A DNA stretch of 46,419 nt, taken from contig WIAG01000027.1 in NCBI GenBank assembly GCA_014055495.1, forward strand, positions 1 through 46,419, given 5' to 3'. Shown piece after piece: positions 26,896 to 34,962 of the stretch. Source of the DNA: Nitrospira sp. CR1.2 (GTDB lineage Bacteria; Nitrospirota; Nitrospiria; Nitrospirales; Nitrospiraceae). The number at the start of each line of letters is the position of its first letter. Position 1 is the stretch's first letter. A program made the position numbers and the translations under genes. The notes beneath the pieces are model-generated. The model searched no databases, was not told where the DNA came from, and was given only the letters and a program-made list of their open reading frames with translations.

Positions 26896-27893
26896 GGCAA
26901 ACGATTCACCGGAATTATCCTCCTACTGGCTTAGACCCGCGACTGATGTTCGAGCGAGTCATCAAGGGGCACACCCTGCTGACTCTCCCCTCCTGCATGC
27001 CTGCGGCATCTGTCGAGAGACTTGAGGCAAGCATAGAGGGGACGAGGCCACTGCTGTCCAAAATAATCCGCCCCTCTGTGTGTCTCCTGCATGAATGCTG
27101 CGTTTGAGACGACTTCGGCGCCTGTTCTCGAAGGAGGTTGTCTGGTCTGGGTGCTGTCCAAGATTATGCGGCAAAAAGCCCTGTTTGCAAGGGCATCGGA
27201 GTGATCGCGGATGCTTAAAGGGCGCATTGAGCCACGTCCACAGGTCTCGATACGTCAACAGATTGAAGCGGAGCAAGGCCGCGAGGTTCGAGAGACTCCA
27301 GGGCCAGGTGGACTTGAGCCGGAGATATTTCAACAGCACCATGGCAATCAACGCAATCCAGATCTGGACCTGCACGGCGTTCTCACTGGTGCCGACAAAC
27401 GTCTTGATCTTGAGGTGTTGCTTCAAAGCTTTGAAGAGGAGTTCGATCTGCCAGCGCTCCTTATAGATGGCGGCAATCGTACTGGCGGCCAGATGCATGA
27501 GGTTCGTCAGGAAGGTGAGCCGTCTCTGCTGCGTCTCGTCCCAGATGGTCACCTGCCGCAAAGGGACGGGACAGCGGCCTGCAGGCCGGTGAGGCGAATC
27601 ACCTCATCGGCCACCATCGGGCCTCGCATGGGAACTGGCCGCCGCTCCAGGACTTCGTGCAGCATGTTCGTCCGTGGACGCGTCACAAACCCCACCTCGG
27701 CGAGCGTCCAGCGATGATATAGGACATAGTCGAGATACCCCCGATCCATCGCCACTATGGTGCCTGGTGGAAATGTGAGTTGGTGGGCGATGCGCACGTC
27801 GTTAGTATCCCCGTCGGTCACTAGAGAATTTTTGATTTAAGTGCATACACTCTGTAGAATGCCCTCCATTGGTTTCTTGATGGAGGCAACAGG

Positions 27894-28286
27894 ATGGATG
27901 CCTATTCGCAGGATCTACGGGACCGTGTGTTGAGAGCATTGGAACGTGGGGAGCGTCCGACAGCCATTGCCGCCCGATTTGAAGTCAGTCGGGTCTGGGT
28001 GTATCAGGTGCGGAACCGGCTCACGCAGACGGGGCAGCGGAGCAGTCTCCCAATTGGAGGCCATCGGCAGTCCCGATTGGTCGGGATGGAGCCGACACTG
28101 CGGGCGTGGTTGAAGGAAACAGGTGATCTGACCCTTGCGGAGATGTGTGCCCGATTAGCGGCACACGGGATTGCGATGAAGGTCCCCGCCTTGTGGCATC
28201 AACTCGACAAATGGAAGCTCACACGTAAAAAAACCCCTACACGCCAGCGAGCAAGATCGCGCCGACGTGCACGCCGCACGGCGTGA
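27894..28286 (+). CDS. IS630-family transposase, N-terminal frame (orfA)
   Basis: The product is 130 residues and starts MDAYSQDLRDRVLRALERG. Helix-turn-helix DNA-binding segments (AIAARFEVSRVWVYQVRN) and a second winged region (LTLAEMCARLAAHGIAM) are typical of the IS630 paired-type N-terminus. The frame shifts relative to orfB at a run of seven A bases at 28227-28233; one A fewer would fuse orfA to orfB. Beyond that run the orfA frame is an Arg-rich artefact. It binds the inverted repeats to assemble the transposition complex. Confidence 0.85.
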   Translation: MDAYSQDLRDRVLRALERGERPTAIAARFEVSRVWVYQVRNRLTQTGQRSSLPIGGHRQSRLVGMEPTLRAWLKETGDLTLAEMCARLAAHGIAMKVPALWHQLDKWKLTRKKTPTRQRARSRRRARRTA

Positions 28287-28833
28287 GTGGCAGGCAGCCC
28301 AACCCGCTCTGGACATCACGAAGCTGGTCTTTCTGGATGAAACAGGGGCTTCGACGAACATGGCACGGCGCTACGGACGCGCCCCGCGTGGTGAACGGTG
28401 CGTCGCCTCTGTCCCGCACGGACATGGGCATACCACCACCTTCGTTGCCGGGCTGCGTCATGATGACATCTCCGCTCCGATGGTGGCGGATGGGGCCATG
28501 ACCGGCACCCTGTTCCTCAAATATGTCCAGGAGTTCTTATGCCCGACGCTCCACCCCGGCGATATCGTCATCGCCGACAACTTACGCAGTCACAAAGTGG
28601 CGGGCGTCAAAGAGGCGCTTGAGGCGGTGGGGGCACACATTCGCTATCTCCCGCCGTATTCCCCCGATCTCAATCCCATTGAAAAACTGTTTGCCAAACT
28701 CAACGCGCTGCTCCGCAAAGCCGCCCCTCGAACCGTGGATGCGCTCTGGGCTGAGATCGGCATGCTGCTCGACCGCTTCACACCCGCTGAATGCACGCGC
28801 TACTTCGCGTCTTCAGGCTATGTAAAGACATAA
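28267..28833 (+). CDS. IS630-family transposase, catalytic DDE frame (orfB)
   Basis: The catalytic domain starts functionally upstream of 28267, through the A7 tract shared with orfA. Asp 1 is in LVFLDETGASTNM, Asp 2 in IVIADNLRSHK, and Glu in PPYSPDLNPIEKLF, the canonical IS630/Tc1-mariner spacing. All three catalytic residues are intact. Production of the full-length transposase requires frameshifting or transcriptional slippage at the A tract; otherwise only a catalytic fragment from the internal ATG 28267 is made. Confidence 0.87.
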   Translation: MHAARREWQAAQPALDITKLVFLDETGASTNMARRYGRAPRGERCVASVPHGHGHTTTFVAGLRHDDISAPMVADGAMTGTLFLKYVQEFLCPTLHPGDIVIADNLRSHKVAGVKEALEAVGAHIRYLPPYSPDLNPIEKLFAKLNALLRKAAPRTVDALWAEIGMLLDRFTPAECTRYFASSGYVKT

Positions 28834-29389: not shown

Positions 29390-30397
29390 CTATCGCTGGG
29401 CGGCGGGGTCTTCAAGCGTATCATTCTGTCCTTTCCCGACCACTACTAAACACGCCAACCCGATCCCGATCCATACCAGTTCACGGAATCTTCGCAGCAG
29501 CGCGAAGGTGATACCCGTGACATCGCCATACCCGAAGGCGGTCAACAGGAACAGATTGCCGGCGTCTTGCGCGCCCAGGCTGCCGGGGATGAAAAACGTG
29601 CCGCCCTTGATAAACACCGACAGCGCGCCGATCGCAATGGCCGACAACACTGTAATGGGTTGTCCCAAGCACACAATCATGACGAACACTTCCAACGCCT
29701 CGGCCAGCCATCCGAGAAGAAAGAGGCCGGTCGATACCAAGAAGGCCGTTCGCCGGTGCGCGTAGAAGTGGGCAATCGTGCGATCGAGTTCAAGGAGTTT
29801 CTGCTCTCGCGACTCCAAATACTGCAGTCGCAGGCCGATGCGTCGAAGAAGGTTCAACATCCAGGCAAACATGCCTTGCCGTTGCACGATGACAAAGGCA
29901 CCGATGCCGAACACGAGCAACCCCACACTCACCAACCCTGCCGTGATGGTCTGGCCGGCCGATCCGCCGGCGCCTAACAACCAAAACCCCAACCCGATCC
30001 CGGCCAGGATGAAGAGAATCTGGGCGATCGTCATCGTGGTCTTGGCCGTCACCACCGACGCCAACCCCTCCACGATCGGTACACCCTGTCGTTTGAGCAA
30101 AAACGCTTTGAGCGGTTCTCCACCCACGTAGGCCGTGGGAGTGGTCATGTTCACCACTTCTCCGGCGGTTCGAATCGCCAGCACTCGCCAGAAAGGCACG
30201 TCTTTCGCCCACGCGCCGAGCGTGACCAGCCATCCGTAGGCGTCCAGAATGTACATGAGCAGAGAGGGGAGGAGAATCACCAGCATCGCGGCAGGACCGA
30301 GCTGCGCCACCGCATCATAGATACGCTCGATGCCGATGTGCCAGACCAGTGCCGAGAGTGTCAGGGCCCCGAGAAGAAGGAGGGCCGCCTTAAGCAC
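29390..30397 (-). CDS. UPF0104/LPG-synthase-TM-type lipid flippase-like membrane protein
   Basis: The product is 335 residues with about eight membrane helices, in the TIGR00374/AglD/HpnL-like family (established fold: lysylphosphatidylglycerol synthetase TM region). Family features are TTPTAYVGGEPLKAFLL near residue 90, and AEALEVFVM plus GTFFIPGSLGAQDAGNLFLL in the C-terminal half. GTG 30397 overlaps the upstream CDP-alcohol transferase stop by 8 bp, so the two are coupled. Given that gene order, export or flipping of a phosphonate-headgroup lipid is a reasonable inference. A truncated paralog exists at 333-898. Confidence 0.82.
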   Translation of the reverse strand: MLKAALLLLGALTLSALVWHIGIERIYDAVAQLGPAAMLVILLPSLLMYILDAYGWLVTLGAWAKDVPFWRVLAIRTAGEVVNMTTPTAYVGGEPLKAFLLKRQGVPIVEGLASVVTAKTTMTIAQILFILAGIGLGFWLLGAGGSAGQTITAGLVSVGLLVFGIGAFVIVQRQGMFAWMLNLLRRIGLRLQYLESREQKLLELDRTIAHFYAHRRTAFLVSTGLFLLGWLAEALEVFVMIVCLGQPITVLSAIAIGALSVFIKGGTFFIPGSLGAQDAGNLFLLTAFGYGDVTGITFALLRRFRELVWIGIGLACLVVVGKGQNDTLEDPAAQR

Positions 30398-31844
30398 GGG
30401 CCCGTGCCGAGGGTCGGATCACCCAGACCATCATCAACCAGAAGACGGTTGAGCCGAGCGCGGCCATCCACAGAAACCAGTCCAGCTTGTCCAGCAGCGC
30501 AAAGAGGAAGACCACCACGGAAAAATCGCGACTCGCCACGTTTTTCAGAATGAAGTCGGACCAGGCCGCCTGCTTGGGCGTATTCCAGCCACGCGTGGCG
30601 CCGATTTTTTGCGCCTTCGTGACCAGCCAGAAAGACATGATATTGCCGAACACCGCTGCGCCGCCCAACGCCAACGGAACCCAGGCGCCTTCGGCACCGG
30701 CCTGCCGGAGATAGGCACCGCAGGCGATCCCGGCAAAGATGGCGATATGCACCACGTTGTCCATGGCGATATCCAGCCAGGCACCGAACGGCGATTCGGT
30801 AAACGTGAGCCGAGCCACCTCACCATCGCAACAATCGATGACCGCCGCCAATTGAAAGAGCAACGCGGCCACGATCCCGGCCGAGTACGTCCCTAAACCA
30901 AACCCCACCGCAGACAGAATCCCGACCGCCGTCGCCACCATGGTGATCACGTTGGGCGAACATTTCATCCGCAAAAACAGTCTGGTCAACAGCCGCGAGA
31001 AGGTCCGATTGAAATAGCGATCGACGAATCCCTCGGCCTCTCCCTTCAACGAACGGAAGAGGGTCCGCTCCGCCAATCCGGCGCTGGTATGATCCCATAC
31101 GTCCCGGTACCACAGACCCGCATGAGCCGCAGCCGCCACCACCCGCACACGCCCTTCCACCGCCGCCTGTTCCAGCCAACGACGCATGGGAACGGCACCC
31201 GATGGCTCGGCGCTGCTCTTGGCCGTCCCCGTCCCGGCTCCTGCCGGTGGATTCAAAATGCTGGCCGGGACGACCACAAGATCCGCCGCCACTTGGTGAT
31301 GTTCCCGGCTCGGCTGATTGTGAAACGAGACCAGCCGCCCCTCTCGCAACGCAACGACCGGATTGCGACGCCCAGACGAGGACTCGTCCGGACCTCCGGC
31401 CCTCGTCACCACGAGCGCCTCCCCGTCTCGCACCGTTTGCCGAAGGTGCTCGATCAGTTGCTTCGAAAACACCGCCTGCACCCCGGCAATAAGACAGAAC
31501 CCGCGCACCTCGGTGGCCAGCGATTCCCAGGTCCGCGGGTCATCCAGCGGGAACTCACGCACCGGCATCCATCGGACCGGAATCGTCACGCGTGCCCCGC
31601 GCGCCAAGGCCTGCTTCAGCAACTCTTCATCGGGGCCGGCCAGCACAATCAACTGGCGAATGCCTCCACGTTGCAAGGTGAGCACGGTCCGCTGAAACAG
31701 ACTCAGGCCGCCGATATGAGTCAGGGGTCCGACGTCGGCCAGGCCGCGACCTGGGCGATCGCCGAACAAGCCTGCCCCTGGCAAGAGGATCGCCGTGCTC
31801 AATCCCTGGAGTTCGGCGCCATGTTGTAGCGTACGTTCACTCAT
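30390..31844 (-). CDS. CDP-alcohol phosphatidyltransferase fused to an N-terminal nucleotidyltransferase-like domain
   Basis: ATG 31844 (MSERTLQHGAELQG) is chosen; the frame also reaches a GTG at 31913. The N-terminal ~220 residues have an NTP-transferase-like beginning (TAILLPGAGLF, GLSLFQRTVLTLQ), but the usual GxGxRL...PK signature is degenerate. The C-terminal ~210 residues are a membrane CDP-OH-P domain with the full signature D-G-x2-A-R-x8-G-x3-D-x3-D (DGEVARLTFTESPFGAWLD, then a fourth Asp). It transfers a substituted phosphoryl or phosphonyl group from a CDP/CMP donor to an alcohol. With a PntC-like gene next door, the donor may be CMP-aminoethylphosphonate. The architecture recalls bifunctional inositol-phosphate enzymes. 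Confidence 0.85.
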   Translation of the reverse strand: MSERTLQHGAELQGLSTAILLPGAGLFGDRPGRGLADVGPLTHIGGLSLFQRTVLTLQRGGIRQLIVLAGPDEELLKQALARGARVTIPVRWMPVREFPLDDPRTWESLATEVRGFCLIAGVQAVFSKQLIEHLRQTVRDGEALVVTRAGGPDESSSGRRNPVVALREGRLVSFHNQPSREHHQVAADLVVVPASILNPPAGAGTGTAKSSAEPSGAVPMRRWLEQAAVEGRVRVVAAAAHAGLWYRDVWDHTSAGLAERTLFRSLKGEAEGFVDRYFNRTFSRLLTRLFLRMKCSPNVITMVATAVGILSAVGFGLGTYSAGIVAALLFQLAAVIDCCDGEVARLTFTESPFGAWLDIAMDNVVHIAIFAGIACGAYLRQAGAEGAWVPLALGGAAVFGNIMSFWLVTKAQKIGATRGWNTPKQAAWSDFILKNVASRDFSVVVFLFALLDKLDWFLWMAALGSTVFWLMMVWVIRPSARARA

Positions 31845-31930
31845 TGTCCGACTCGTCGTTCGCCTTTTCTCATTCGTCTCCGGATATCTTACGAAATACG
31901 CGCCACGATTCACATGCGGCGAGCCACGAC

Positions 31931-32650
31931 TTACAGCCGCGGGAGGACGTCTCGCTCCGCCTTCGTGATATCTTCGGGGAAATCGATTTCCGTCCAGGGC
32001 AACCCGCCGATTTTTTCATGCCCGACTTTGACATCACGAAAATATTGCAACAACCCGTCTTCGTACTCCATATCCCATCGCCCCTGATCGACGTACCCCT
32101 TGAGAGACGCGATCACGTGGGGAGCATCCGCGCGACGCACCCGGAGAAACCCCACCCCTTCACCGGCAAGATCGTACCGATCGGGCATCTTCTTACTCAG
32201 CGCAATCACGCGGTCACCCTGTACGACGACCATACATTCTTCGCCCGTTTGCTTCACCGTATCGTCCATCAGCAGGCAATTTTCGTACGACGAGGATACC
32301 AGCCGCCGAAGGATTTCCCGATGAAACAACACGTCCGCATCCATGATGACGGCGTCGTCGGTGAGCGCCTGCCTGGCGATCCATAGGGACGAAATACTTC
32401 CACGGTGAAACTCTTCGTTCACCAGATAGGAAAGATCCACGCCATGGCACTGCGAACCGACAGCAGCCCGAATCATCTCCTGTTTGTAACCGACCACGAT
32501 GGTCGCGTGTGTGACCCGGACCGAGGCCAGGGACTCGAGATAGCGGGACAACAACGTCTGCCCGCCGATCTCGATCAAACATTTCGGCCTGTGCTGGGTC
32601 ACCGGCCAGAGGCGCTTGCCGACTCCGGCCGCAAGAATGATCGCCTTCAT
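31931..32650 (-). CDS. PntC-like nucleotidyltransferase (probable CTP:aminoethylphosphonate cytidylyltransferase)
   Basis: The product is 239 residues. The signature AAGVGKRLWPVTQHRPKCL is at residues 7-25, and the metal site MDADVLF has Asp104/Asp106. The C-terminal acidic site is WTEIDFPEDITKAE. Phosphocholine/AEP cytidylyltransferases (LicC/PntC type) share this compact form. The ATG overlaps the transaminase stop as ATGA. Activation of 2-aminoethylphosphonate to CMP-AEP is inferred from the neighbouring decarboxylase and transaminase. A sugar-1-phosphate substrate is the main alternative. Confidence 0.8.
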   Translation of the reverse strand: MKAIILAAGVGKRLWPVTQHRPKCLIEIGGQTLLSRYLESLASVRVTHATIVVGYKQEMIRAAVGSQCHGVDLSYLVNEEFHRGSISSLWIARQALTDDAVIMDADVLFHREILRRLVSSSYENCLLMDDTVKQTGEECMVVVQGDRVIALSKKMPDRYDLAGEGVGFLRVRRADAPHVIASLKGYVDQGRWDMEYEDGLLQYFRDVKVGHEKIGGLPWTEIDFPEDITKAERDVLPRL

Positions 32651-33741
32651 GCGCGCGCCGTGGCCCCGGAGAGGACTTCCTCAAACGCGCCCAGGAAGCC
32701 GTCGATCTGAGCCTCGGTGAGGGCCCCCATATTGGCGACGCGGAAGACCTTCGATTCGAGCTGCCCCTGCCCCGCATAGATCACGTACCCGCGGGCCTTG
32801 AGCTGATCATGCAGGGACGCGTAGCTGAGGCCGGCGGGCAGATGAAAGGCGGTGATCGTATTCGAGAGCGAGTCCGCCGACAGCAAGGTTTTCACACCCA
32901 ACTTGGCCATTCGTTCCCGAATGCGGACTGCCGCCCGCTTGTAACGCTGCAGCCGATTGGCAACGCCCTCCTCCAACAGCTCGTCCAACGCTTCTTCAAA
33001 GGCATAATACACCTGCACGGCCGGCGTGAAGGGCACGATCCCCCGTCCCTGGTCATCGACGTAATGTGTCAGGGTCAGATACCAGGACCGCTTGGGATAC
33101 TTGCGCATGCGCTCCAAAAATCCCTTACGCAGCAGGACAAACGAGACGCCGGGGAACCCCTGAATGCACTTCCCGGCCGTTCCCGCCACCATGTAAATAT
33201 GCGATCCGGCAATGTCGATCGCTTCGCCCGCCAGACCGCTGACCGAATCGAGGACGAATACCCGGTTGAGACTGTCCACGACTTCGGCAATGTCTTTCAC
33301 GGGATTGATCAACCCGGTGGTCGTCTCGTGATGGACCATCGACACCGCGTGGACCTCGGGGTGCTGACGCAAGGCCAATCGGAGCCGTTCAGGATCAGGC
33401 CGCACGTGCCAGTCCGACTTGAGTTCGGACACACCCAGCCGCTGCAAGCCGATCATGTTTGACAGGCGTTCACCGTAGACCCCGTTGTTGAGCACCAACA
33501 TGCGCTTGCCTAGCGGCAGGCAGGACATGACGGCAGATTCCACCGCCGCCGTGCCGGACCCGGTCAAAACCACGGCCACGTAGTCGGACTCTGCGCCCGG
33601 CACGAAGGCGGTGAGCAGCTTCTGTTGAATACGAAGCAGCATGTCGGAAAACTCGGATTCCCGATGACAGATGTCCGGGCGCAACAAGGCCTGCCGCACC
33701 CGCTCGCTCACATTTACCGGTCCTGGATTCAGAAGTATCAT
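32647..33741 (-). CDS. Class V PLP aminotransferase, 2-aminoethylphosphonate-pyruvate transaminase type
   Basis: ATG 33741 (MILLNPGPVNVSERV) has GAGG upstream; the 15-residue in-frame extension is not needed. The product is 364 residues. Opening LLNPGPVN, CHRESEFSDML and TGSGTAAVESAVMS are hallmark motifs of the AEP transaminase subgroup. PLP contacts are Asp165 in VLDSVSG and the Schiff-base Lys191 in GTAGKCIQGFPG. In the biosynthetic direction it would aminate phosphonoacetaldehyde to 2-aminoethylphosphonate. It lies between the split decarboxylase and the cytidylyltransferase, which supports that role. Confidence 0.87.
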   Translation of the reverse strand: MILLNPGPVNVSERVRQALLRPDICHRESEFSDMLLRIQQKLLTAFVPGAESDYVAVVLTGSGTAAVESAVMSCLPLGKRMLVLNNGVYGERLSNMIGLQRLGVSELKSDWHVRPDPERLRLALRQHPEVHAVSMVHHETTTGLINPVKDIAEVVDSLNRVFVLDSVSGLAGEAIDIAGSHIYMVAGTAGKCIQGFPGVSFVLLRKGFLERMRKYPKRSWYLTLTHYVDDQGRGIVPFTPAVQVYYAFEEALDELLEEGVANRLQRYKRAAVRIRERMAKLGVKTLLSADSLSNTITAFHLPAGLSYASLHDQLKARGYVIYAGQGQLESKVFRVANMGALTEAQIDGFLGAFEEVLSGATARA

Positions 33742-33809
33742 GTTATGCCTCAGGCTGTTGATCGGAACGGAGCAGGACGGGCTCACCCAGCACGTTCAGT
33801 GCGCCGCAA

Positions 33810-34367
33810 TTATTCAATGGCTTTCATGAACCGCGCGGTGATCGCCGGCGGTTCCAGGGCAATCCGTCCGGCATCCTCGACGAACTCGTTCACCTTGACG
33901 AGCAGCATGCTCGGCCCATCATTCTTCAACATCTCTCTGAATTCGTAGACGAGATCTTCCCGGTCCAACACCCGCTCGACCGCCACATACCCGGCCGCCT
34001 TCGCCACCTTCTCCAATTGAACGACGTTGGAAATGGTCGGCTGATTGCCCGTCGAGCCATAGACTTCATTGTCGAACACGACATGAACGAAGTTCTTGGG
34101 CCGCAAGGCGCCCACCGTGGCCAACGTGCCCATGCCCATCAGCACATTGCCGTCGCCGTCGAAGACGACGACTTTCTTGCCGGGTTTCGCGAGTGCCACG
34201 CCCACACCGATGGCCGCGGCATTGCCCATCGAGCCGATCATGTAAAAATGTGTCGGCCGATCGGCAAGTTTTTGAGCTTCCCGCGAGGGGAATCCGTTGC
34301 AAATGATGACCGGTTGATCCGTAAGCAATTCAAGCAGCGCCGCCATCGCCTGGGCCCGGCTCTGCAT
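33810..34367 (-). CDS. Phosphonopyruvate decarboxylase, TPP-binding (beta) subunit
   Basis: ATG 34367 (MQSRAQAMAALLELL) follows AGAAGGAA. The 185-residue product is the C-terminal Pyr/PP-type half of a ThDP enzyme. The ThDP motif runs from GDGNVLMGMG (Asp70-Gly73) to VVFDN (Asn100), and IGSMGNAAAIGVG is the typical preceding segment. It pairs with the subunit encoded upstream at 34465-34962, separated by 97 bp. Most phosphonopyruvate decarboxylases are single chains of ~380 residues; here the two halves are separate genes, as in archaeal sulfopyruvate decarboxylase. It is expected to decarboxylate phosphonopyruvate to phosphonoacetaldehyde. Confidence 0.83.
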   Translation of the reverse strand: MQSRAQAMAALLELLTDQPVIICNGFPSREAQKLADRPTHFYMIGSMGNAAAIGVGVALAKPGKKVVVFDGDGNVLMGMGTLATVGALRPKNFVHVVFDNEVYGSTGNQPTISNVVQLEKVAKAAGYVAVERVLDREDLVYEFREMLKNDGPSMLLVKVNEFVEDAGRIALEPPAITARFMKAIE

Positions 34368-34464
34368 CGTTCCTTCTTCTGGCCTCACAGCATCGACCTC
34401 GTCGTCCGTCTCTCGCACCTCGCGGGAAGCATGTCGCGCTTCACGAGATGCGCGGCATGGTTTC

Positions 34465-34962
34465 CTACGGGTGTAACCCCTTGATGATGCCCTTCTTGAT
34501 CAAGAGGGCCACGGGAACCCGCTGCTTCATAAACGTCTGAGCCACCCACCGGAGATCGTCCGCCATCGTCTGCTCCGACAAAGTCCGGTGAGGAATTTTC
34601 ATCGTATCGAGTAATTGTGGCATGGTCTCACCCATCACGAGATGTTCCGGGGCGTCTTTGCCCTCAAACCCCCGCCAGGAGACCAGCAAGATGCACGGCT
34701 GCCGATAGATCACATTGAGCGACACCAGCGTGTTGAGCGAGGTGCCCAGCCCGGAGTTCTGCATGAGCACGGCCGGAATTTTTCCGGCCATAAACGCACC
34801 GGCGGCCATGGCGACGGCTTCATCCTCCCTGACAGCAGGCGTGTAGAGTTTGCGGGTGAGGAGTTCTTCGATGATGCCGCCCAGGAGGGAATCGGGCACG
34901 CCCGTGAAGAAATTGACCCCTAACTGTTCCAACGCCTGCACGAAGATGTCACTATCGACCAT
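34465..34962 (-). CDS. Phosphonopyruvate decarboxylase, N-terminal (alpha) subunit
   Basis: The product is 165 residues. FFTGVPDSLLGGIIEEL matches the start of phosphonopyruvate decarboxylases, and AVREDEAVAMAAGAFMAG carries the conserved Glu that activates ThDP. MQNSGLGTSLNTL is another family motif. It forms the pyrimidine-binding half and needs the beta subunit for activity. AAGAGGAG precedes the start, and a sigma70-like promoter lies 45-73 bp upstream, so this is the first gene of the phosphonate operon. Sulfopyruvate decarboxylase is the alternative reading, because that enzyme is also split. The phosphonate neighbours favour Ppd. Confidence 0.85.
   Translation of the reverse strand: MVDSDIFVQALEQLGVNFFTGVPDSLLGGIIEELLTRKLYTPAVREDEAVAMAAGAFMAGKIPAVLMQNSGLGTSLNTLVSLNVIYRQPCILLVSWRGFEGKDAPEHLVMGETMPQLLDTMKIPHRTLSEQTMADDLRWVAQTFMKQRVPVALLIKKGIIKGLHP

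Follow-up and report, generated by a model that had tools for sequence, protein, structure and literature searches.

Gene organization of the cassette

The window analysed here (the whole stretch of 46,419 nucleotides of contig WIAG01000027.1 from Nitrospira sp. CR1.2) belongs to a 4.06 Mb genome of Nitrospira, nitrite-oxidizing bacteria, and includes a gene for a fusion of an eroded cytidylyltransferase-like domain with a CDP-alcohol phosphotransferase (CDP and CMP, cytidine di- and monophosphate). In the most likely reading, the CMP-linked donor is not made by the N-terminal domain of this fusion, which is also dispensable. The relatives are Nitrospira; in Candidatus Nitrospira defluvii FP929003.1 (locus L190) the fusion protein is 90% identical.

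A total of six genes, including the fusion gene, form one run on the minus strand. Two of them, identified by profile scans, encode the halves of a phosphonopyruvate/sulfopyruvate decarboxylase-like enzyme of the thiamine pyrophosphate (TPP) type, the N-terminal subunit at 34465..34962 and the C-terminal subunit at 33810..34418. A 2-aminoethylphosphonate (AEP) transaminase-like gene follows at 32647..33786 (TIGR03301, 338.1 bits; cut-off, 360.8), then an intact PntC-like cytidylyltransferase gene at 31931..32650 (signature, profile and PDB matches), the fusion gene at 30390..31844 (open reading frame [ORF], Pfam and model), and as the last gene of the operon an HpnL-like/LPG_synthase_TM flippase-type membrane protein at 29390..30397 (profile scans). 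The ORF of the fusion runs from an upstream GTG (30390-31913), and the internal ATG at 31844 is the start that was taken in an earlier interpretation of the DNA, hereafter the sequence-only reading. Residues of the fusion are numbered from the codon at 31910.

The fusion gene gave matches in 91 of 100 genomes, its own included, at E <= 1e-3; two of these (G069 and G072) were weak matches to other CDP-alcohol phosphotransferases and were scored as lacking the fusion, leaving 89 genomes with the gene. Many genomes in the sample are fragmented bins, and the complete six-gene operon was found on 34 of the 46 fetched stretches of relatives, the remainder being mostly broken by contig ends. Since 91 genomes match and 34 stretches carry the whole operon, a chance arrangement was set aside.

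Domain structure of the fusion protein

The C-terminal membrane domain (30393..31040, minus strand; Pfam and structure matches) was matched to the Pfam family CDP-OH_P_transf (PF01066) with E 4.6e-10, above the family cut-off. Its catalytic motif (30759..30836, minus strand; motif match), described as perfect in the sequence-only reading, is indeed intact, D359CCDGEVAR...G376...D380...D384 fitting D(x2)DG(x2)AR(x8)G(x3)D(x3)D. By motif and family score the fusion belongs to PF01066; the domain is a CDP-alcohol phosphotransferase, with transfer of a group from a CMP or CDP donor to an alcohol as its predicted reaction.

The N-terminal domain gave no Pfam match when the full protein was scanned, and NTP_transf_3 at E 0.022 when scanned alone. 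The same family was matched by 24 of the 34 scanned members of the N-domain alignment (E up to 1; best, 7.1e-5). A profile built from the 34 members found nothing in PDB better than E 0.88, and matched the neighbouring nucleotidyltransferase genes with a best E of 6.4e-8. The AlphaFold2 model of the fusion, made from 47 sequences, reached a mean local confidence (pLDDT) of 86.7 and a predicted template-modelling score (pTM) of 0.84. In this model the N-terminal domain adopts a nucleotidyltransferase fold, and nucleotidyltransferase chains (PntC, MurU, RmlA and GMPP) fit mostly its N-terminal part with Z scores of about 19-21. The likeness to nucleotidyltransferases that had been noticed from the letters is therefore weak by sequence and clear by fold and by the profile hits to the neighbouring genes, and chance resemblance was set aside. 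The domain consists of an eroded core (about residues 35-175; 31386..31808, minus strand; alignment, model and substitution rates) and a faster-evolving part (about residues 176-250; 31161..31385, minus strand; alignment and substitution rates).

Two structures from Archaeoglobus fulgidus cover both domains of the model. The N-terminal domain of AF2299 is inactive. AF2299 (PDB 4o6m/4o6n/4q7c) shares the two-domain fold and arrangement with the predicted model (Z 27.4, 329 residues aligned, root-mean-square deviation [rmsd] 4.0), at 22% identity in the structural alignment; its chain of 330-341 residues is shorter, hence its N-terminal domain is smaller. It is a precedent for a cytidylyltransferase-like domain on a CDP-alcohol phosphotransferase, so the two-domain form itself was already known. 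A structure of AF2299 is described with bound CDP-glycerol, whereas the operon of the fusion points to CMP-AEP. The bifunctional IPCT-DIPPS (PDB 4mnd) has the same order of cytidylyltransferase and CDP-alcohol phosphotransferase, with 399 of 408 residues aligned (Z 26.9, rmsd 3.6), but the cytidylyltransferase residues are lost in the fusion. Against NF041135, the IPCT-DIPPS family, the fusion scored 90.5 bits over its C-terminal part only and did not reach the cut-off of 580.

Loss of catalytic residues from the N-terminal domain

The remnant of the nucleotide signature loop reads GAGLFGDRPGR (residues 45-55; 31746..31778, minus strand; sequence and catalytic-site alignment), as the sequence-only reading had it. 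Catalytic positions were compared in an alignment that combined 47 eroded and three paralogous N-terminal domains with 12 bifunctional enzymes (L083 belongs to the same order, the remaining 11 to other Nitrospirota families outside it) and with 15 PntC-like nucleotidyltransferase genes that neighbour the fusion. The signature Arg and Lys are present in none of the 47 eroded rows, in all 12 bifunctional enzymes and in all 15 neighbouring genes. The metal-binding Asp is likewise present in 12/12 and 15/15 of the latter groups, and in only one eroded row (L118; L194 has Glu). The three paralogous rows keep none of these residues. In the window protein the Arg position is gapped, Lys is replaced by Gly61, and the metal Asp by Gln145; given the low similarity of the eroded rows, single columns of the alignment are approximate. 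One row (L088) is a frameshifted locus, and L073, which stands outside the alignment, likewise lacks the signature.

Among 182 ORFs with the CDP-alcohol phosphotransferase motif (the loci overlap), none combines an intact signature with the RW..E motif that marks the eroded domain of the Nitrospirales operon genes. RW..E without the signature was found in 138, an intact signature in 17 (12 bifunctional enzymes and five re-fused ORFs, two of the latter being the same locus), neither in 15, and 12 were short, some of these being unrelated CDP-alcohol phosphotransferases or fragments. In the alignment, the catalytic positions are lost across the eroded clade. Homologs with intact residues, which the sequence-only reading had named as evidence against erosion, do exist, but only as a separate IPCT-DIPPS-like clade or as a re-fused neighbouring gene; an intact version of the N-terminal domain itself was seen in none of the 182 ORFs.

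Ancestry of the fusion

The 12 bifunctional enzymes carry intact signatures, and L103 among them can be matched to IPCT-DIPPS along almost its full length (E 2.6e-52). A tree of the CDP-alcohol phosphotransferase domain (69 rows) separated these 12 from an eroded clade of 57 rows with split support of 100/100. The latter includes 46 Nitrospirales operon genes (40 with and six without the N-terminal domain), L109 (a class-level relative that shares the operon), three paralogs, and seven homologs of the Binatota type. The simplest reading is that erosion took place in an ancestor of the 57-row clade, a direction suggested by a tree that is midpoint-rooted with an unproven root and flagged for long branches.

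One paralogous eroded fusion lies in a cluster (L080, 149-8526) with genes for an HpnL-like protein, a HAD phosphatase, a nucleotidyltransferase, a class III aminotransferase, a Gfo/Idh oxidoreductase and myo-inositol-1-phosphate synthase; this cluster may be built on the plan of the cassette, but for a head group of the inositol type.

Absence and replacement of the N-terminal domain in relatives

The transferase stands alone at the operon position in seven of the 89 genomes (G043, G045, G049, G056, G058, G063 and G066). Four of these seven are nested among full-length relatives (support 99/87), and G056 is outside the tree. For two rows of family f4 that lack the domain (L076 and L077), the placement does not separate loss from ancestral absence.

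In four genomes of one genus (4/14), an ORF of 483-488 residues was found in which an intact PntC-like domain runs directly into the transferase and the eroded domain is gone (L197 5205-6668, L198 5293-6750, L199 5285-6742, L089 5500-6948 and L183 5224-6687; L183 and L197 appear to be one locus). DNA alignment of the fused L183 with the separate genes of L184 showed an in-frame loss that takes in the end of the nucleotidyltransferase gene with its stop codon and almost the entire eroded domain. A common origin of the four re-fused genes is supported at 56/46 only. The best structural matches of the N-terminal domain in the L183 model were PntC (Z 29.4) and LicC (25.4), followed by sugar nucleotidyltransferases at 24.0 and below. 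Over both domains this model matched IPCT-DIPPS with Z 25.0 but rmsd 15.7, so that the domain arrangement may differ from that of IPCT-DIPPS. Triple fusions suggested by large open-frame values in G083, G078 and G085 were rejected after ORF calls in G083 and G078 showed separate ORFs.

Selection on the N-terminal domain

The ratio of nonsynonymous to synonymous substitution (dN/dS) was estimated pairwise by the Nei-Gojobori method for 29 Nitrospira-group sequences. By region, the medians were as follows: N-terminal core, 0.038; linker, 0.155; junction, 0.081; catalytic domain, 0.056. Values of dS were near saturation (about 1.0-1.2), 15, 60, 92 and 8 saturated pairs were excluded for the four regions, and the region borders are shifted by one residue. 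A smaller run of 13 sequences gave 0.035 for the core and 0.05 for the catalytic domain. Since the core value is below that of the catalytic domain, the eroded core is under purifying selection and is not junk, and a decaying pseudo-domain was set aside as a candidate.

The probable phosphonate pathway and the PntC-like neighbour

The second cytidylyltransferase gene (31931-32650) that the sequence-only reading placed next to the fusion is indeed intact, carrying LAAGVGKRL...RPK. Its product has as its best PDB match the PntC-AEPT of Treponema denticola (PDB 6pd1/6pd2; E 2.3e-13) and aligns end to end with PntC. The intact signature, together with PntC and LicC as the closest structures (a structural match taken from the homologous L183 domain), marks it as PntC-like. 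In T. denticola PntC is fused to the transaminase; in the window the PntC-like gene stands by itself, and in the four genomes above it is joined to the transferase.

An intact nucleotidyltransferase gene is present in 85 of the 89 genomes with the fusion. The exceptions are G031, G070 and G075, whose fusion is on a short contig, and G061, a genome of high quality. Among 79 high-quality genomes, 71 have both fusion and nucleotidyltransferase gene, one has only the fusion, none only the nucleotidyltransferase gene, and seven neither (Fisher test, 2.8e-9). The corresponding numbers for the fusion and the phosphoenolpyruvate (PEP) mutase PepM are 71, 1, 1 and 6 (1.7e-7), G031 being counted as lacking PepM because it has just a 34% match of the other type; the genomes are related, so these values are not from independent trials. 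Co-occurrence is broken in G061, which has the N-terminal part of the fusion and lacks the phosphotransferase part, the nucleotidyltransferase gene and PepM. At that locus (L075, 1131-5431) the state may reflect decay or assembly.

The PepM of the window's genome (G000:C107) carries the motif EDKxxxxxNS as EDKLFPKTNS and has a fused C-terminal nucleotidyltransferase domain; a second clear PEP_mutase match in this genome lacks the motif. PepM is close by on 14 of the 46 fetched stretches, all of the window's family, and in G071 the nucleotidyltransferase gene has been relocated out of the operon and adjoins PepM. Co-occurrence, the proximity of PepM, the arrangement in G071 and the PntC alignment together favour CMP-AEP as the probable donor.

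Proposed role of the fusion and alternatives

The predicted fold, the loss of catalytic residues, purifying selection, synteny, and the relatives that lack the domain or have it replaced are consistent with the following scheme, which we consider fairly probable. The cassette would make AEP, which the stand-alone PntC-like enzyme would activate to CMP-AEP; the C-terminal membrane domain of the fusion would move AEP onto a hydroxyl acceptor, and the flippase-like protein would then translocate the lipid-linked product. The N-terminal domain would be a pseudo-cytidylyltransferase, descended from a bifunctional cytidylyltransferase-CDP-alcohol phosphotransferase like IPCT-DIPPS; after losing catalysis it would have been retained to cap or position the transferase on the cytosolic side. 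In known structures that have a nucleotidyltransferase domain, it partly covers the transferase pocket (PMC8633023). A cap or positioning role fits best because the N-terminal domain can be absent or replaced by an active enzyme. Of the suggestions made in the sequence-only reading, that this domain does not make the donor held up: the catalytic positions are lost, the PntC-like gene is nearly always present, and relatives delete or replace the domain. The roles named there, binding of substrate, regulation or channelling of the donor, are candidates only.

Several observations weigh against this scheme. The proposed cap is based on fold and position only, and the first Asp of the WxDxD stretch in the metal-binding region remains Asp in 25 of the 47 eroded rows. 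Of the two residues of T. denticola PntC reported to contact the AEP amine, E104 and E196 (PMC6697681), the neighbour keeps the equivalent of Glu196 within MEYE but has Asp at the position of Glu104, as in LicC. The window contains no PEP mutase, PepM being located on another contig beside Ppd-like and polysaccharide-export genes; no protein of the six in the cassette scores above the cut-off of an NCBIfam equivalog; and the beta subunit of the decarboxylase scores slightly higher as sulfopyruvate decarboxylase (185.6 bits) than as phosphonopyruvate decarboxylase (175.0). With respect to the acceptor, a transferase of the six-helix type sits badly with diacylglycerol, and two cassette genomes of family f4 (L076 and L077) lack the HpnL-like gene on the fetched stretch.

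Possible, though in our view unlikely, is that the eroded domain serves for docking, as a dead subunit that pairs with the PntC-like enzyme over the transferase and channels CMP-AEP. The fusion and the PntC-like gene co-occur and adjoin, and in the four re-fused genomes an intact domain covalently occupies the place of the eroded one. The GMPPA/GMPPB complex, in which GMPPA is the non-catalytic partner, is also among the structural matches of the fusion model. However, the seven genomes without the N-terminal domain keep both enzymes separate, and the re-fused model, from an alignment with only one fused row, is loosely arranged with a low-confidence linker (pTM 0.63).

It is doubtful that the domain is a ligand sensor, with its pocket rebuilt around RWxPxREFP..DP.TWE and binding a regulator such as the acceptor, phosphate or a nucleotide. 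This conserved replacement motif (RWMPVREFPLDDPRTWE, residues 113-129; 31524..31574, minus strand; alignments) falls in the alignment on the NxxWxxGNxxSL loop of the intact enzymes, that is, in the old nucleotide region, while the former signature loop is variable in length and sequence. R113, W114, E119, F120 and W128 are invariant across the 34 rows of alignment A1. Nevertheless, only the Nitrospirales operon genes have the motif, Binatota-type, paralogous and L109 sequences being without it; the whole domain can be missing, and the candidate ligand is only hypothetical.

Improbable, too, is a cassette not devoted to AEP, either because its split TPP enzyme decarboxylates sulfopyruvate or because the compound activated is a different phosphonate or phospho-alcohol. 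The beta-subunit score and the lack of PepM in the window would fit such a cassette. On the other side, the alpha subunit prefers the phosphonopyruvate model (128.7 bits vs 110.5 for sulfopyruvate), the transaminase is of the AEP type, and a PepM with the complete motif is encoded in the genome, tracks the fusion and is found near the cassette in relatives. The decarboxylase (33810-34962) is made of two separate TPP subunits, as is sulfopyruvate decarboxylase, and not of one chain. Finally, that the N-terminal domain is still an active cytidylyltransferase using non-canonical residues is highly improbable: the fold is kept under strong selection with one metal-region Asp in about half of the rows, and four fusion genomes lack the nucleotidyltransferase gene, but none of the 47 rows has kept Arg and Lys and 46 have lost the metal Asp, the gene is intact in the 85 other genomes, and one of the four (G061) has also lost the phosphotransferase part.

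Acceptor and significance

CDP-alcohol phosphotransferases with six helices are reported to use soluble acceptors, and those acting on lipid acceptors to have extra C-terminal helices (PMC4634129). In the fusion model the helices stop at the core, with none beyond it, and a simple phosphonolipid on diacylglycerol is kept as a possibility only. The flippase-like last gene suggests a lipid-linked product, and an acceptor that is the polar group of a lipid would fit this gene as well as the soluble-acceptor rule. The HpnL-like protein scored 152.6 bits against TIGR03476 over residues 3-310, below the cut-off of 195.65, and no further hpn family was found among the ten proteins scanned. The presence of squalene-hopene cyclase does not discriminate for a hopanoid acceptor, since 79 of 79 high-quality relatives match.

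Two side observations touch on hopanoids, as leads and not as proof. The Binatota-type eroded fusions L118 and L194 adjoin hpnI, hpnJ and an HpnL-like gene, a hopanoid cluster. In two other families an extra operon gene of about 325 residues lies between the nucleotidyltransferase gene and the transferase (L064 5207-6190, L077 4573-5550 and L076 7436-8413), and in L064 this gene gave a match to squalene-hopene cyclase repeats (SQHop_cyclase_C, 1.4e-11).

In one report, the tailoring steps after PepM are called 'enigmatic' and the capture of CMP-AEP is left to 'presumably' carbohydrate or lipid nucleophiles (PMC6697681). The cassette is present in 72 of 79 high-quality relatives, ends in a CDP-alcohol phosphotransferase and mostly a flippase-like gene, and thereby points to a specific candidate CMP-AEP transferase. 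This candidate is new, as are the phosphonate setting and the series of replacements. The cassette was not found described in the open-licence PMC literature on phosphonates, PntC, HpnL and CDP-alcohol enzymes, which, in the portions covered, is weak evidence of absence. A wider proposal, tentative and rather unlikely as a whole, is that the cassette supplies the last part, so far missing, of the AEP pathway of nitrite oxidizers; its transferase would yield a membrane lipid with a phosphono modification, perhaps on a hopanoid or some other polyol lipid, and the rebuilt pocket would regulate transfer. If true, evolution itself would have run a domain swap, a live domain replacing a dead one. 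The three natural architectures, with a dead domain, no domain or a live domain, allow the contribution of a pseudoenzyme domain to be measured without guessed truncation points.

Transposase genes lie downstream of the operon in the window (26962-28833): one is a DDE_Tnp_1 fragment, and the other, of IS630 type, is spread over two overlapping frames. In one relative a second copy of the operon, from the transaminase to the HpnL-like gene (L115, 2194-6580), is split into many short frames; L114, the intact copy of that genome, is about 12 kb away.

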